From a virus: 28,073 bases of DNA. The stretch covers positions 1 through 28,073 of the IMG/VR virus record IMGVR_UViG_3300025276_000166; one strand, given 5' to 3'. The notes below the pieces were generated by a model. That model had not been told where the DNA came from, made no database searches, and worked only from the letters and a program-made list of their open reading frames with translations. Both the position numbers and the translations under genes were made by a program. Below, one piece after another: positions 7,385-28,073 of this stretch. The number at the start of each line of letters is the position of its first letter. The first letter of the stretch is position 1.

Positions 7385-7424
7385 GTTTATAATTTGTTTA
7401 TAAGTATAATTTGTATTATGTTTG
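7385..7424 (+). promoter_or_regulatory. early promoter element P2
   Basis: GTTTATAATTTGTTTATAA (7385-7403) contains the -33 box TTTG at 7393-7396. After a 20-base spacer comes TATGTTTG (7417-7424), a perfect TAnnTTTG -7 box. The ATG of the next gene follows only four bases later (7429), so the transcript should be leaderless or nearly so. This is the best Bacteroidota housekeeping promoter in the window. Confidence 0.75.
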
Positions 7425-8978: not shown

Positions 8979-9018
8979 GTTTATAATTTGTTTATAACTA
9001 TAAAAGGTTTTATATTGC
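8979..9018 (+). promoter_or_regulatory. early promoter element P3, upstream of the modification operon
   Basis: The 19-base block at 8979-8997 is identical to that of P2 and includes TTTG (8987-8990). A 20-base spacer leads to TATATTGC (9011-9018), a two-mismatch version of TAnnTTTG. The leader before the ATG at 9040 is A/C-rich (AAAAAACAAAACAATG). Confidence 0.65.
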
Positions 9019-9212: not shown

Positions 9213-9431
9213 ATGAAACTATTTGAAGACGAATGGGGCATTGATGAATCACCAATAGAAGACGTAGAAATTACAACTACATTATTATACTTTAGTAAGT
9301 CAGAGTTAAAAGAATTTAAAGCATTATGTAAAAAAGGTATAAAGATAGAGTTCCAAGAAGACTACCAGCAAAAGGGAAACCTAAGTGATTTACTTTTAAA
9401 GGTACTAAAACAAAGATATGAAAATAGATAA
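9213..9431 (+). CDS. 72-residue acidic protein, unknown function
   Basis: An acidic N-terminus (MKLFEDEWGIDESPIEDVEI) precedes FSKSELKEFKALCKKGIK and GNLSDLLLKVLKQRY, which look like short helices; a small DNA- or protein-binding role is possible. It starts two bases after the previous stop and overlaps the dioxygenase gene by 14 bases. Small genes of this form recur in flavobacterial phages. Confidence 0.6.
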   Translation: MKLFEDEWGIDESPIEDVEITTTLLYFSKSELKEFKALCKKGIKIEFQEDYQQKGNLSDLLLKVLKQRYENR

Positions 9432-10290
9432 AATAATAGTTAAAAGGGTTTTAGATAACGATAAAGCTGCAAAGCTAAAAACTAAGTTCCTTAATACAAG
9501 CCACTACAATACATTAATCACAAAGGATTGCGATGCCTTTGACAACTGTGGAAACCTATTGTTTAGGTTCAGGAAAAATGCAATACCAATAGACGTGCTC
9601 AAAAATGGCGTTGATGCCTTTAGGGGTTCTATAGAAGTGACTGAGGGTCGTGGCTCTGCAAGTGGGAGCAGCCATAAACGAATCAGGAAAGATGGTAGTG
9701 TAAGCAATATAACAGTAGGGAATAAAGTAGAGTCTGGGAATGTGGGTTTTATGGATAGCGGTGCTATGGTTAAATATTGCAGAACGACAGCATTTGCAAA
9801 GAACCACTTTGATAAGTTTAAACAAGGTATTCCGTTCGTTGAGTTTATTGATAAAAAATATGCTGAGTTATGCCCAGTTCATTACGCCAAACAAAAAGCG
9901 ATTGCAGATGGTACGAACAGGAACTATGTTATAGGGGATACTAGCTTTACAACGGTAACTGTTAATAAAAACTTCCGTACGGCTTGCCACCAAGATGCTG
10001 GCGACTTCCGAGAGGGGTTTGGAAACCTTATTGTGTATCGTGAAGGTAATTATGATGGAGGATACTTTGTGATGCCAGAGTTTGGGGTTGCTATTGATTT
10101 AGAAAATACTGACTTATTATTTGCAGACGTACACAAGTGGCACGCAAATACAGAGTTTACTAATTGCAGCGATGATTGGTTACGCATAAGTTTCGTTATG
10201 TACTATCGTGAAAATATGATTAAATGCAGTAGCCCAAGCGGTGAACTGCAAAAAGCTAAAATGGATAAAACTGGTTACTTAACATTATAA
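9418..10290 (+). CDS. TET/JBP-family 2-oxoglutarate/Fe(II) dioxygenase (DNA base hydroxylase)
   Basis: A 290-residue protein. The catalytic core spans about residues 165-270: TTVTVNKNFRTACHQDAGDF gives the iron ligands His191 and Asp193, GFGNLIVYREGNYDGGYFVM the central strands, LLFADVHKWHANTEF the distal histidine (His239 or His242), and DDWLRISFVMYYRENM the 2-oxoglutarate-binding Arg256. This F-R-x-A-C-H-x-D ... V-H-x-W-H-x-N ... R-x-S-x-V-x-Y-x-R-E-N pattern is diagnostic of TET/JBP enzymes, which oxidise the methyl group of 5-methylcytosine or thymine in DNA. The N-terminal 110 residues include a Gly/Ser-rich basic loop (GRGSASGSSHKRIRKDGS), perhaps DNA-binding. Downstream nuclease-like and glycosyltransferase genes complete a likely DNA hypermodification operon. 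No cytosine C5-methyltransferase is seen, so the target base is uncertain. Confidence 0.85.
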   Translation: MKIDKIIVKRVLDNDKAAKLKTKFLNTSHYNTLITKDCDAFDNCGNLLFRFRKNAIPIDVLKNGVDAFRGSIEVTEGRGSASGSSHKRIRKDGSVSNITVGNKVESGNVGFMDSGAMVKYCRTTAFAKNHFDKFKQGIPFVEFIDKKYAELCPVHYAKQKAIADGTNRNYVIGDTSFTTVTVNKNFRTACHQDAGDFREGFGNLIVYREGNYDGGYFVMPEFGVAIDLENTDLLFADVHKWHANTEFTNCSDDWLRISFVMYYRENMIKCSSPSGELQKAKMDKTGYLTL

Positions 10291-10300
10291 AACAAAAACA

Positions 10301-10756
10301 ATGGAAACAACTACAAAACAAAGCAAAGGATTGAAGTTTGAATCATTCATTATGGATTGGTTCGCAGAAAACCACAAGATTAACCTAAGCCATTATACAA
10401 CTTATGATGAGCAAATACACAAAGGGGAAAACAGGCAGGGAATAGAAATAAAGAACGACCAGATGTTTAAAAAAACTGGAAACCTATTTATAAGCGTAGA
10501 GCGTGACTATGGTTACAAGAAGCACCCAAGCGGGATATACAAAGACCAGAGCTGGCTTTATGTTATAGGTGATGTAGATTGCTTTTATATTTTTGCTGTA
10601 AAGCATTTAAAACAAGTTTACGAAGTTAATGATTTACCTTTGTTTAGCGGTTTTAAAACACCAAAGGGTGGTACAGAAAAAGGTTACTTATTAAGTAGGA
10701 AAAATGCTGATAAGTTTTGTATTCAAAAAGTAACAAGTCAAACAAAATTATTCTAA
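10301..10756 (+). CDS. PD-(D/E)XK-like nuclease domain protein in the modification operon
   Basis: A 151-residue protein. GENRQGIEIKNDQMFKKTGN (residues 42-61) carries E49-I-K51 with acidic partners before and after (Glu43, Glu67), and LFISVERDYG follows; this fits a PD-(D/E)XK restriction-type core. DQSWLYVIGDVDCFYIFAVK continues as the second beta layer. Relatives are scattered through phages as hypothetical proteins. It lies between the dioxygenase and the glycosyltransferase and overlaps the latter by one base, so it may read modified or unmodified DNA, for example degrading unmodified host DNA. That role is inference. It has the shared leader ATAAAACAAAAACAATG. Confidence 0.6.
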   Translation: METTTKQSKGLKFESFIMDWFAENHKINLSHYTTYDEQIHKGENRQGIEIKNDQMFKKTGNLFISVERDYGYKKHPSGIYKDQSWLYVIGDVDCFYIFAVKHLKQVYEVNDLPLFSGFKTPKGGTEKGYLLSRKNADKFCIQKVTSQTKLF

Positions 10757-11499
10757 TGGATTATATAATAACTTGCATAAGCCATAATCGGCACGAAAAC
10801 GTAAAAGACTTTTTTGAAAAAGCTGGAACGGAAGAAGTTGTTTTTTTTGTTAAAGACCAAACAGACATTGACAATTATAGATTGAATGGTGCTAAGGAAG
10901 TAATTGCTTCAGGGGGATTAATGGATAGCAGGAATGCAGCTCTAGATTATTGTTTTAATAATGGTAAAATATGCGTAGAGTTAAGTGATGACCTTGAATC
11001 AATAATGGTTAATGACTTTACTGGTAAAAGAACAAAGAAATATTGCACTGTAATTGAATCATTAAGTAATATAATGCCTAAATTTATTGAGTCAGATTAT
11101 TACCTAGCTGGGTTCCCGCCTACTAATAACCCATTCTTTGCCCTTAATAAATACGACTTGAATAAATTTATTGTTGGCGACTTCTTGATTATAAAGCCTA
11201 CAAGTATAAGGTTTGACAATAATTTAAAGCTAAAGGAAGATTATGATTTTTGTTTAAGTTTTATGAAATTAAAGGGTGGGTGCATACGTTATGCAGATTA
11301 TTTAATGTCATTTAAACACTACTCTAATAAAGGTGGGGCGGTTGATTATAGGACAGCAGAACTAGAGCAAAAGACCATAAAATACCTTACTCAGAAATGG
11401 GGTGATTGCATAAAGTTAAACACTAAACGGGAAAACGAAATACTATTAAATAAAAACAGTTATAAAATTTTAAATTCTAAACAAATAAATTTATTTTAA
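10756..11499 (+). CDS. putative TET-associated glycosyltransferase (DNA base glycosylation)
   Basis: A 247-residue GT-A-type protein. I take the ATG at 10756, overlapping the previous stop as TAATG; a TTG at 10717 lies inside the upstream gene. YIITCISHNR starts the nucleotide-binding strand; GGLMDSRNAALDY (residues 53-65) is the substrate-positioning helix; VELSDDLESI (74-83) holds the metal-binding Asp78-Asp79; and KEDYDFCLSF (160-169) a candidate acidic active-site pair. The SRNxxLDY-then-SDDL arrangement matches TET-associated glycosyltransferases, which add sugar to hydroxymethylated bases. Adjacency to the dioxygenase strongly supports this. The sugar is unknown. A glycosyltransferase acting on protein or cell surface is the alternative. 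Confidence 0.72.
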   Translation: MDYIITCISHNRHENVKDFFEKAGTEEVVFFVKDQTDIDNYRLNGAKEVIASGGLMDSRNAALDYCFNNGKICVELSDDLESIMVNDFTGKRTKKYCTVIESLSNIMPKFIESDYYLAGFPPTNNPFFALNKYDLNKFIVGDFLIIKPTSIRFDNNLKLKEDYDFCLSFMKLKGGCIRYADYLMSFKHYSNKGGAVDYRTAELEQKTIKYLTQKWGDCIKLNTKRENEILLNKNSYKILNSKQINLF

Positions 11500-11726
11500 T
11501 GAGATCAACCTATTTACATTACGAGAACGGTAAAGGCTATGACGTTATAGACTTTATAAAAGATTATGAGCTAAACTTTAACAGAGGTAATATTATTAAG
11601 TATATTTGCAGGAGTGGTAAAAAAGATGATGAGCTTAAAGACTTAGAAAAAGCAGCCGACTACTTAAGGCGAGAGATAGAATACTTAAGAGATCAGAAAG
11701 AACAATGGATAGAAAAAAATAAATAA
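11499..11726 (+). CDS. DUF3310 (SaV-like) protein
   Basis: A 75-residue protein with the DUF3310 signature: YDVIDFIKDYELNFNRGNII, KYICRSGKK and DLEKAADYLRREIEYL. This all-helical family is widespread in phages of Firmicutes, Proteobacteria and Bacteroidota, usually among nucleotide-metabolism or replication genes; its activity is not established. Here it is coupled to the glycosyltransferase by a one-base overlap, so it may be part of the same transcription unit rather than the same pathway. Confidence 0.85.
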   Translation: MRSTYLHYENGKGYDVIDFIKDYELNFNRGNIIKYICRSGKKDDELKDLEKAADYLRREIEYLRDQKEQWIEKNK

Positions 11727-12904: not shown

Positions 12905-14113
12905 TTGATTGAAGTAAAGAAAAAATACCTCCCTATTGTAAAAGAAGACAGTAGGTACTATATTGTAAGTGGTGGGCGTGGTTCTGGAAAGTCTTTTTCA
13001 GTAAACGCCCTTTTAGTAATGCTAACCTATGAAGCTGGGCATACAATACTATTTACACGTTATACGCTAACCTCAGCTTATATATCTATCATTCCAGAGT
13101 TTATAGACAAGCTCGAACAGTTTGGCTCTATACACGATTTTCACATAACCAAAGATGAGATACTAAATAAGAAGACTGGTAGTAAGATAATCTTTAGAGG
13201 GATAAAAACCTCAAGTGGAGACCAAACAGCTAACCTGAAATCTTTACAAGGGATTACAACGTGGGTAGTTGATGAAGCTGAAGAACTAACAGACGAGAAC
13301 AAGTTTGACACTATAGACTTATCAGTAAGGCAGCAAGGCAACCAAAACAGAGTTATACTAATATTAAACCCTACAACCAAAGAACACTTTATATATACTA
13401 GATTCTTTGAAGACAGAGGTGTTCAAGAGGGGAGCAATATAACCAAAGACAACACTACTTACATTCACACTACTTATATGGATAACATAGAGAACTTATC
13501 CAAAAGCTATATAGAGCAGATAGCACAAATGCGAGAGCGTAGACCAGAGAAGTATAAGCAACAGATGTTAGGGTCTTGGCTAAACAAAGCAGAAGGGGTT
13601 ATATTTGATAACTGGACTATAGGAGAATTTAAAAGAAGTAGTGTAAGTGTATGGGGTCAAGATTACGGATTCGCTGCTGATCCTTCTACATTGGTTGAGT
13701 GTAACATAGACACAAGCTCTAAAACAATATACTTAAAAGAATGTTTCTATTTACAAAGATTAACCACATCGCAAATAGCAGAGCTTAATTTAAAGCATTC
13801 TAAGGGGGGTTTAATAATAGGGGATAGTGCAGAGCCAAGACTACTAAGCGAGATAAAAGCAAAGGGATGTAACGTCAAACCAAGCATAAAAGGTCAAGGA
13901 AGTGTAACATACGGGATAAGCTTACTACAAGACTATGACTTGGTAGTAACTCCAGATTCTACTAACTTAATTAAAGAGCTTAACAACTATTGCTGGTTAG
14001 AGAAAAAGTCAAACACACCAGTAGATAAATGGAATCATATAATAGACGCTATTCGATACGCTGTAGGTTATCAATTACAAAACCCAAACAGAGGGAAGTA
14101 TATTGTATCATAG
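12905..14113 (+). CDS. terL: terminase large subunit (packaging ATPase and nuclease)
   Basis: A 402-residue packaging motor. Walker A is SGGRGSGKS (22-30), Walker B is WVVDEAEE (120-127) with catalytic Glu124, and ILNPT (153-157) is the coupling motif. The C-terminal RNase H-type nuclease has Asp253 (GQDYGFAADP), Asp307 (IIGDSAEP) and Asp381 (HIIDAIRYA). It resembles PBSX/XtmB-type terminases. The start is unusual: an in-frame TAA six bases upstream limits the choice to TTG at 12905 (or the following ATT), because the first ATG lies beyond the P-loop. The TTG follows the small-subunit stop by three bases, so translation may depend on coupling. Confidence 0.95.
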   Translation: MIEVKKKYLPIVKEDSRYYIVSGGRGSGKSFSVNALLVMLTYEAGHTILFTRYTLTSAYISIIPEFIDKLEQFGSIHDFHITKDEILNKKTGSKIIFRGIKTSSGDQTANLKSLQGITTWVVDEAEELTDENKFDTIDLSVRQQGNQNRVILILNPTTKEHFIYTRFFEDRGVQEGSNITKDNTTYIHTTYMDNIENLSKSYIEQIAQMRERRPEKYKQQMLGSWLNKAEGVIFDNWTIGEFKRSSVSVWGQDYGFAADPSTLVECNIDTSSKTIYLKECFYLQRLTTSQIAELNLKHSKGGLIIGDSAEPRLLSEIKAKGCNVKPSIKGQGSVTYGISLLQDYDLVVTPDSTNLIKELNNYCWLEKKSNTPVDKWNHIIDAIRYAVGYQLQNPNRGKYIVS

Positions 14114-27460: not shown

Positions 27461-27976
27461 ATGGCAACAGCATTATTTATAAGTAGAACAGACTTAGTTA
27501 AAAACTCTATTATTGATGGGAATGTAGATACGGATAAGTTTATACAATTTATCAAGGTCGCTCAGCAAATAGACATACAAAACCTTTTAGGAACGGAGCT
27601 ATATAAAAAAATCGGTGCAGATATTACTTCTGGTGCTGGTGGTGGTGCTGGTTTATCTGGTAATTATCTAACTTTAGTTAATGATTATGTGCAACCCACA
27701 TTAATATGGTTTGCTCAAATGAATTACATACCATTTGCAGCATATCAAATAAAAAACGGAGGAGTATTTAAACACAGTAGTGAAACAGCCCAAAACGTTG
27801 ACAAAAACGAAGTAGATTATTTAGTAAGTAAAGCTAGAGAGTATGCAAATTATTACTCAACTAGAATGGTAGACTATTTGTCTTTTAATGATAATCTTTT
27901 TCCAGAGTATAATCAAAATAATAACGAAGATATTAGCCCAGATACGGACACAACTTTTAACGGATGGGTTTTATGA
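27461..27976 (+). CDS. head-tail connector (adaptor) protein, full-length copy
   Basis: A 171-residue protein, one base after the portal stop: ALFISRTDLVKNSIIDGNVD, FIQFIKVAQQIDIQNLLGTE, LYKKIGADITSGAGGGAGLS, then LVNDYVQPTLIWFAQMNYIP and a helical end with NEVDYLVSKAREYANYYSTR. The N-terminal helical part with D-I-Q-N-L-L-G-T-x-L-Y matches connector proteins of flavobacterial phages that follow the portal. It probably sits at the portal base as a dodecameric ring. From codon 27 onward it recurs at bases 1-436 with an identical protein. Confidence 0.8.
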   Translation: MATALFISRTDLVKNSIIDGNVDTDKFIQFIKVAQQIDIQNLLGTELYKKIGADITSGAGGGAGLSGNYLTLVNDYVQPTLIWFAQMNYIPFAAYQIKNGGVFKHSSETAQNVDKNEVDYLVSKAREYANYYSTRMVDYLSFNDNLFPEYNQNNNEDISPDTDTTFNGWVL

Positions 27977-28073
27977 AGTATAAGGTAAAAGAGACTAACC
28001 TTACTAAGCTTAAAAAGTATATAGACGAGTCTTTAAAAAAAGAAACACTTGTAAAAGCTAAAGATGATAAATA
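27541..28073 (+). repeat. terminal direct repeat, right copy (matches 1-533)
   Basis: Right copy of the end overlap. Removing one copy gives a unit of 27540 bases. Confidence 0.95.
27973..28073 (+). CDS. 33-residue lysine-rich mini-protein, truncated by contig end
   Basis: Second copy of the gene at 433-534. The contig ends one base short of its stop codon, so the whole coding sequence is present and identical. Confidence 0.5.
   Translation, partial: MKYKVKETNLTKLKKYIDESLKKETLVKAKDDK

Follow-up and report, generated by a model that had tools for sequence, protein, structure and literature searches.

Introduction

Pairing of a TET/JBP dioxygenase with a TET-associated glycosyltransferase (TAGT) is already known in phages; TAGTs were named for their association with TET. 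In the system of Burke et al. 2021, as cited in PMC12730594, a phage TET acts on 5-methylcytosine (5mC) together with a cytosine-C5 methyltransferase (C5-MTase) and glycosyltransferases. In the kinetoplastid base J pathway, JBP1/2 and JGT hydroxylate and then glycosylate thymine. Glucosylated 5-hydroxymethyldeoxyuridine (5hmdU) was stated in 2019 not to have been reported in phage genomes (PMC6449724), and no later report was found in the open-licence literature, outside which many papers lie. Here we analyze IMG/VR virus record IMGVR_UViG_3300025276_000166, a 28,073-base virus sequence that we call the window at its full length, in which genes for a TET/JBP dioxygenase, a nuclease-like protein (nuc), and a TAGT follow one another on the plus strand, as do all the genes, residues, and motifs of the cassette located below.

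A sequence-only reading of the window had proposed that the cassette hydroxylates and then glycosylates a base in DNA, leaving the base unnamed. The family models of TET and TAGT, the confident TET structure, and the strict conservation of the cassette uphold this order of reactions, while the promoter that formed part of the same proposal was not supported. On balance, we lean toward regarding the locus as a replication-coupled, post-replicative DNA-capping cassette of a small phage, in which the predicted TET activity would be followed by that of a clamp-docked TAGT.

Enzymes of the cassette

The TET gene (9418..10290) encodes a predicted 2-oxoglutarate- and Fe(II)-dependent dioxygenase of 290 amino acids. 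The protein matches PF12851 (Tet_JBP) over residues 118-265 with 88 bits (E 5e-25), well above the gathering cutoff of 34.9, and its AlphaFold (AF2) model, built on an alignment of 48 sequences, is a confident TET fold (predicted local distance difference test [pLDDT], 93.5; predicted template modeling score, 0.89). The nearest solved structure is TET2 (Z 21.1 over 259 residues), followed by CMD1, NgTET1, and CcTET, with AlkB and FTO clearly lower (Z about 13-14); a phmmer search of the Protein Data Bank (PDB) returned no match. H191, D193, H239, H242, and R256 are invariant across 48 relatives, but when divergent phage TETs, including those of actinophages, are compared, only H239 varies. In a profile alignment with TET2, H242 falls under the distal His and R256 under the Arg of "TRISLVFY." The predicted distal iron ligand is H242 (10141..10143), not H239, since H239 varies in the divergent TETs and H242 aligns with the distal His of TET2. 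The sequence-only reading had left the choice between these two histidines undecided; the rest of its residue set, comprising the iron site H191-x-D193 (9988..9996) and the 2-oxoglutarate-binding R256 (10183..10185), stands, as does its family assignment. The predicted activity is oxidation of a pyrimidine 5-methyl group in DNA, most likely that of thymine to yield 5-hydroxymethyluracil (5hmU). The TET domain is also matched by phrog_6059, whose label, "queuine tRNA-ribosyltransferase," is misleading; some actinophage TET records bear that name.

The capping enzyme is a TAGT of 247 amino acids (10756..11499), read from the ATG at 10756 with an alternative TTG start at 10717. It matches the whole of PF20691 (model positions 1-205) with 34 bits, above the cutoff of 27.5, and phrog_842 (beta-glucosyl-HMC-alpha-glucosyltransferase) with an E value of 4e-16; phmmer found no match in the PDB. 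R12, N60, D78, D79, D162, and G194 are invariant among 15 divergent TAGTs aligned. Thus, the two aspartates of the SDDL motif (D78 and D79), by which the enzyme had been recognized from the sequence alone, are kept in all 15, whereas the flanking SRNxxLDY is typical only of the subclass to which the window TAGT belongs. Several related loci (L013:7503-9015, L104, L018:1367-2774, L086, and L101) combine a TAGT with a second TAGT or with a DXD sugar transferase (PF04488), an arrangement that suggests di-sugar or mixed caps.

Between the two lies nuc (10301..10756), a protein of 151 amino acids without a Pfam family. Its AF2 model (pLDDT 78) gave no significant match in Foldseek, while VIA-align returned mostly PD-(D/E)xK enzymes at Z scores of up to 7.1: I-Ssp6803I was best (Z 7.1), and the others included D212, RecU, PvuII, DpnI, and HhaI. 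The predicted model thus resembles PD-(D/E)xK nucleases, in keeping with the earlier description of a nuclease-like gene inside the cassette. The candidate active site, E49-x-K51, lies on a strand and is invariant, as are E14, E37, and E43. Since TET is adjacent in all 43 distinct relatives having at least 700 bases upstream of nuc, we consider nuc to be tied to TET; since 25 of 83 TAGT loci lack it, it appears to be optional and not integral to the chemistry. On the TET tree described below, its gain and loss require 10 changes (compare L097 with L111).

Exchange of capping genes

Searching IMG/VR with TET and nuc yielded more than 100 loci, and ORFs (open reading frames) were labeled in 164 loci (L numbers) with profiles built in this analysis. 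TETs of this family are rare in bacteria: a collection of 84,980 species held seven loci, all in metagenome-assembled genomes (MAGs). The nearest TET of a cultured phage, at 70% identity, is that of Nonlabens phage P12024L, in which a TAGT ending in QLEIF and a methyltransferase come after TET. The latter was considered as a possible C5-MTase and rejected, being of the N6/N4 type.

In these relatives, the slot behind TET, or behind TET and nuc, is filled by a TAGT of one of several classes, by a P-loop kinase, or by a protein resembling amino acid:DNA transferase (ADDT) together with the kinase, and the capping genes are replaced gene for gene between close relatives. Between L088 and L097, DNA identity is 93.9% before the swapped gene (through the end of nuc) and 90.9% after it. 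L087 and L097 carry a TAGT and a kinase, respectively, behind TETs that are 98.6% identical, their DNA being 95.5% identical up to the end of nuc. In L106 and L107, a TAGT is exchanged for ADDT plus kinase behind TETs that are 99.65% identical (here the upstream side alone is comparable). TAGT classes are also exchanged for one another, class 1 for class 0 in L007 and L009, which are close to the window, and in L122 and L125. On the TET tree (118 rows; branch support from the Shimodaira-Hasegawa-like approximate likelihood ratio test only), parsimony calls for no fewer than 15 switches between sugar and phospho/amino caps; the minimum is 18 for changes among TAGT classes and 32 when all caps are counted. 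A single swap could be an artifact of chimeric assembly, but each of these states is found again in separate contigs, with the kinase in L089, L092, L093, L094, L097, and L103 and ADDT plus kinase in L105, L107, and L110. Our literature search turned up no account of caps being exchanged gene for gene behind a single TET, of the gene order TET-nuclease-TAGT, or of a shared clamp tail.

C-terminal tails

Both nuc and TAGT end in a pentapeptide resembling the bacterial beta-sliding-clamp binding motif: QTKLF (10739..10753) and QINLF (11482..11496), respectively. The clamp-binding consensus at C termini is QL(S/D)LF (PMC9690074); the two tails keep its Q, L, and F and differ at position 2. We counted the exact pattern Qxx[LIM]F$ in complete, distinct ORFs and found it in 57 of 67 TAGTs, 34 of 45 nuc proteins, and 16 of 49 kinases, against 0 of 35 ADDTs, 0 of 54 terminases, and 7 of 1,387 unlabeled ORFs. 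Shuffled C termini give expectations of 0.1 for the TAGTs and 0.6 for the unlabeled ORFs. Because members of one family are related, these counts are not independent events.

Six of the seven unlabeled ORFs with the tail are DNA methyltransferases of the C5 or N6/N4 type. In 59 of the 62 distinct cassettes that have the small gene s72 before TET and a complete TAGT or kinase after it, the tail is present on that capping enzyme; the remaining three enzymes end in KQISLFQ, KHKQTLF, and GQQSLFF. Kinases have it in 13 of 14 s72-type cassettes and in none of 26 ParB-type cassettes. Its presence on unrelated folds (TAGT classes 0, 1, 2, 3, and 8, the P-loop kinase, two kinds of methyltransferase, and the PD-(D/E)xK-like protein) favors convergent selection over descent. 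In a MAG of the flavobacterium Winogradskyella, two Y-family polymerases carry QLKFAF (C-terminal) and QLNLF; Pol III alpha and the 5'-3' exonuclease were also sought there, but neither family was detected, which leaves these polymerases as its only clamp-motif examples. From the motif, we infer that TAGT and nuc would dock on the clamp of the host.

The same kind of tail (Qxx[LI]F) was observed on compact C5-MTase-like proteins of 213 to 223 amino acids (L002:1954-2595, L109:5767-6438, L110:1883-2536, and L130:2360-3025) and on N6/N4 methyltransferases of P12024L (L048:18039-18674) and L120 (9900-11093). It is possible that a clamp-type tail is a general rule for phage DNA methyltransferases.

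Probable target base of the predicted oxidation

No C5-MTase (PF00145) and no thymidylate-synthase homologue were found in the window genome, the latter making pre-replicative synthesis of 5hmdU unlikely. The partners that replace TAGT offer a further indication of the substrate. The ADDT-like proteins that follow this TET share homology with members of PF18724 (hhalign E 7e-42), with those nearest to the window falling below the Pfam model on their own, and the kinase family matches phrog_800. Both families lead to M6, whose gp051 is a PF18724 ADDT and whose gp054, a PF18748 5-hmdU DNA kinase, also belongs to phrog_800. These links came via the PHROG and Pfam families; hmmsearch of our kinase and ADDT profiles against a set of M6 proteins gave nothing directly. 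The 5-hydroxymethyluracil DNA kinase (5-HMUDK) phosphorylates 5hmU, not 5-hydroxymethylcytosine (5hmC), in DNA (PMC6457204). Since no C5-MTase was found and nearly identical TETs (up to 99.65%) serve a 5-hmdU-kinase-like protein with or without ADDT, thymine is probably the substrate rather than cytosine, and the predicted product would therefore resemble base J.

The label of phrog_800, "terminase small subunit," is misleading, as this family contains the PF18748 kinase M6 gp054. A related kinase also occurs in the Methylophilales phage Melnitz-3 (L174:1457-5537), where an HhaI-type C5-MTase, TET, an unassigned 427-amino-acid protein, and the kinase stand in a row and the annotation of genes 6 to 8 reads "hypothetical"; this cultured phage is a candidate for a cytosine version of the kinase pathway.

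Proposed mechanism and alternative explanations

In the pathway that family membership and structure point to, TET would hydroxylate the 5-methyl group of thymine in DNA, and TAGT would transfer a sugar from a nucleotide sugar to the resulting hydroxyl. The product, a base-J-like glycosyl-5-hydroxymethyluracil, would block host restriction enzymes or other nucleases. The capping enzyme and nuc would dock on the host beta sliding clamp by their last five residues, which would place them just behind the replication fork. The nuclease, as an optional part, would most likely cut host or rival DNA lacking the modification, sparing that of the phage. Because the clamp would serve as a common socket and the 5-hydroxymethyl substrate would be the same, capping enzymes would be interchangeable, so that other TAGT classes, a 5-hmdU-kinase-like protein, or ADDT plus kinase could occupy one slot.

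Several observations weigh against this proposal, and those concerning the base lend weight to a cytosine pathway, in which a host or variable phage C5-MTase would make 5mC, TET would convert it to 5hmC, and TAGT would glycosylate the latter. This pathway has the published precedent noted above, and a C5-MTase is present somewhere on the contig in L002, L087, L091, L109, L118, L125, and L130; in L002, a close relative, a compact C5-MTase lies three genes upstream of TET. In Melnitz-3, a kinase of the same family is found near a C5-MTase that adjoins TET, so the kinase partnership by itself does not prove thymine and the argument from it is not conclusive; moreover, direct comparison with phrog_800 gives weak scores (17-26 bits) for the kinases nearest to the window. 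Asp196, which we take to be the counterpart of the base-contacting Asn of TET2, is likewise an Asp in the Melnitz TET, which is linked to a C5-MTase, and so does not discriminate between the bases; the TET2 base contacts (Asn and His, corresponding to D196 and R264) were accordingly dropped as evidence for thymine. Yet the window genome is AT-rich (33.7% GC) and lacks a recognizable C5-MTase, the swapped partners are 5-hmdU kinase-like and ADDT-like, and C5-MTases are sporadic and unlinked to sugar caps: by a hand tally they occur about equally rarely with sugar (7/50) and kinase caps (5/32; Fisher p 1.0), and in 12 of 88 records overall. We therefore regard the cytosine pathway as unlikely.

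The cap and its placement also meet objections. TET lacks the clamp motif (0/121), the PF20691 score of TAGT is only modestly above the cutoff, and the TAGT of phage T6 has been assigned the role of placing a second glucose on a base that is glucosylated already (PMC13390438); for the last two reasons, the sugar and the acceptor of the window TAGT are proposed only tentatively. TAGT might thus act on something other than the TET product, such as an existing cap or a non-DNA acceptor, with no two-step pathway at all, and L013, L083, and L104 do carry two TAGTs each. We consider this very improbable, as the window cassette has no second glycosyltransferase, TAGT is exchanged one for one with kinase or ADDT behind the same TET, and its clamp tail is common to DNA methyltransferases. 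Somewhat less unlikely than either of these alternatives, though still not what we expect, is that nuc, instead of attacking unmodified DNA, acts as a free-standing endonuclease of the homing type and drives the swaps of the neighboring capping genes through intronless homing. Its best structural match is a homing endonuclease, and it adjoins the swapped slot while being gained and lost itself. However, a Z score of about 7 cannot separate nuclease subfamilies, swapping is also seen without nuc (L122/L125), and, unlike a generic homing gene, nuc is found only beside TET and bears the clamp tail as modification enzymes do. The post-replicative capping of thymine by a clamp-docked enzyme remains the reading that we prefer.

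Genome context

The ORFs listed in the sequence-only reading are present, and the operon is as compact as it described: s72, TET, nuc, TAGT, and DUF3310 follow in this order, with neighboring genes abutting or overlapping and TAATG overlaps at 10754-10758 (nuc/TAGT) and 11497-11501 (TAGT/DUF3310). The 72-amino-acid protein s72 (9213..9431), whose gene overlaps the start of TET, has no Pfam or PHROG match; it has 58 distinct complete members in the relatives and keeps its position upstream of TET in this phage group. It occupies the place that a ParB-like gene holds in other phage groups and is possibly a recruiter of TET. The DUF3310 protein (11499..11726; PF11753, 52.5 bits), which overlaps the TAGT stop codon, is absent or replaced in many relatives and is a downstream neighbor outside the predicted chemistry.

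An early promoter of its own had also been attributed to the cassette. Scans of the upstream region were at chance level: sigma-70-like sites are no commoner than in shuffled sequences (17 versus 16.3 +/- 4.9), and the Bacteroidetes-type promoter consensus is missing upstream of the cassette and at chance level over the window. A 17-mer, TTTGTTTATAA(G/C)TATAA, has intergenic copies at 7393-7409 and 8987-9003 with one mismatch between them; allowing up to three mismatches gives three matches versus 1.2 expected, a weak lead to a possible phage promoter element.

The first and last 533 bases of the record (1-533 and 27541-28073) match at 97.4%, so the genome is probably complete, at about 27.5 kb, with overlapping ends. 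The repeats being inexact, this record may have been assembled from two strain variants of one genome, either circularly permuted or terminally redundant. A Pfam search recognized a terminase large subunit at 12905; no tRNA genes were found in the window, and PADLOC matched no defense system. The host is probably a marine flavobacterium, as the nearest cultured relative is Nonlabens phage P12024L.

Implications

Whether a phage is open to attack by a given restriction enzyme, CRISPR nuclease, or Type IV system is decided by the modifications of its DNA. If TET makes 5hmU in DNA, bacterial viruses would possess base-J-like chemistry, and its small, well-defined group of enzymes could serve as tools. 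That capping genes are swapped gene for gene behind nearly identical TETs suggests selection for diverse caps, and the common tail would provide a simple rule for both the replication coupling and the interchangeability of unrelated DNA-modifying enzymes, as well as a search signature for those still unrecognized in phage genomes. More tentatively, and with some doubt on our part, the system can be pictured as a plug-in one, in which the clamp is the socket, Qxx[LI]F is the plug, and sugar, phosphate, and amino-acid caps are exchanged behind a thymine-oxidizing TET so as to evade cap-specific defenses. In its sugar form, such a system would give a bacterial virus base-J-like DNA for the first time. 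In ParB-TET cassettes, whose kinases lack the tail, the role of the DNA-loading clamp may instead fall to the ParB-like protein of the phage.

Comparison with known systems

The window shares with the kinetoplastid base J pathway the TET/JBP oxygenase fold and, by prediction, its two steps. Unlike JBP1, the window TET is filled by the TET fold at 290 amino acids, leaving no room for a J-binding domain; the glycosyltransferase is a TAGT instead of JGT, and the J-like base is a predicted product. Like the cytosine hypermodification system of Burke et al. 2021, as far as it is described where cited, the cassette combines TET/JBP with a glycosyltransferase in a phage, but it differs in the missing C5-MTase, the 5-hmdU-type swapped partners, the nuclease-like gene, and the clamp tails.

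The kinase and ADDT families of M6 also fill the cap slot in sister phages of the window. M6, which encodes a homologue of thymidylate synthase, is believed to build 5hmdU into its DNA as it replicates (PMC6449724); as no such homologue was found in the window, its 5hmU would have to arise within DNA through TET. Actinophage TET cassettes are likewise varied, with ADDT and a 5-hmU kinase in Gordonia phage Wooper and a TAGT and deacetylase in Mycobacterium phage Rich and Arthrobacter phage Altadena; Rhodococcus phage Tonitrus is also among the phages with ParB-TET cassettes (PMC11955845). The alternation of sugar and ADDT/kinase behind TET is thus seen there as well (L172, Wooper; L173, Altadena; L175, Rich), and the gene following the TAGT is annotated as a glucosaminyl deacetylase, which suggests an aminosugar cap. 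In contrast to the window, the actinophage cassettes have a ParB-like protein upstream (Wooper and Altadena), lack nuc, and, over the stretches examined, show no clamp motif at the C terminus.

A DNA glycosyltransferase on a sliding clamp has a counterpart in T4, whose alpha-glucosyltransferase binds the clamp gp45 in vitro, although this binding was not what chiefly set the enzyme's share of glucosylation (PMC13216743). The T4 enzyme belongs to a different family and uses a different clamp, whereas the window tail is a bacterial-type C-terminal peptide common to unrelated modification enzymes.

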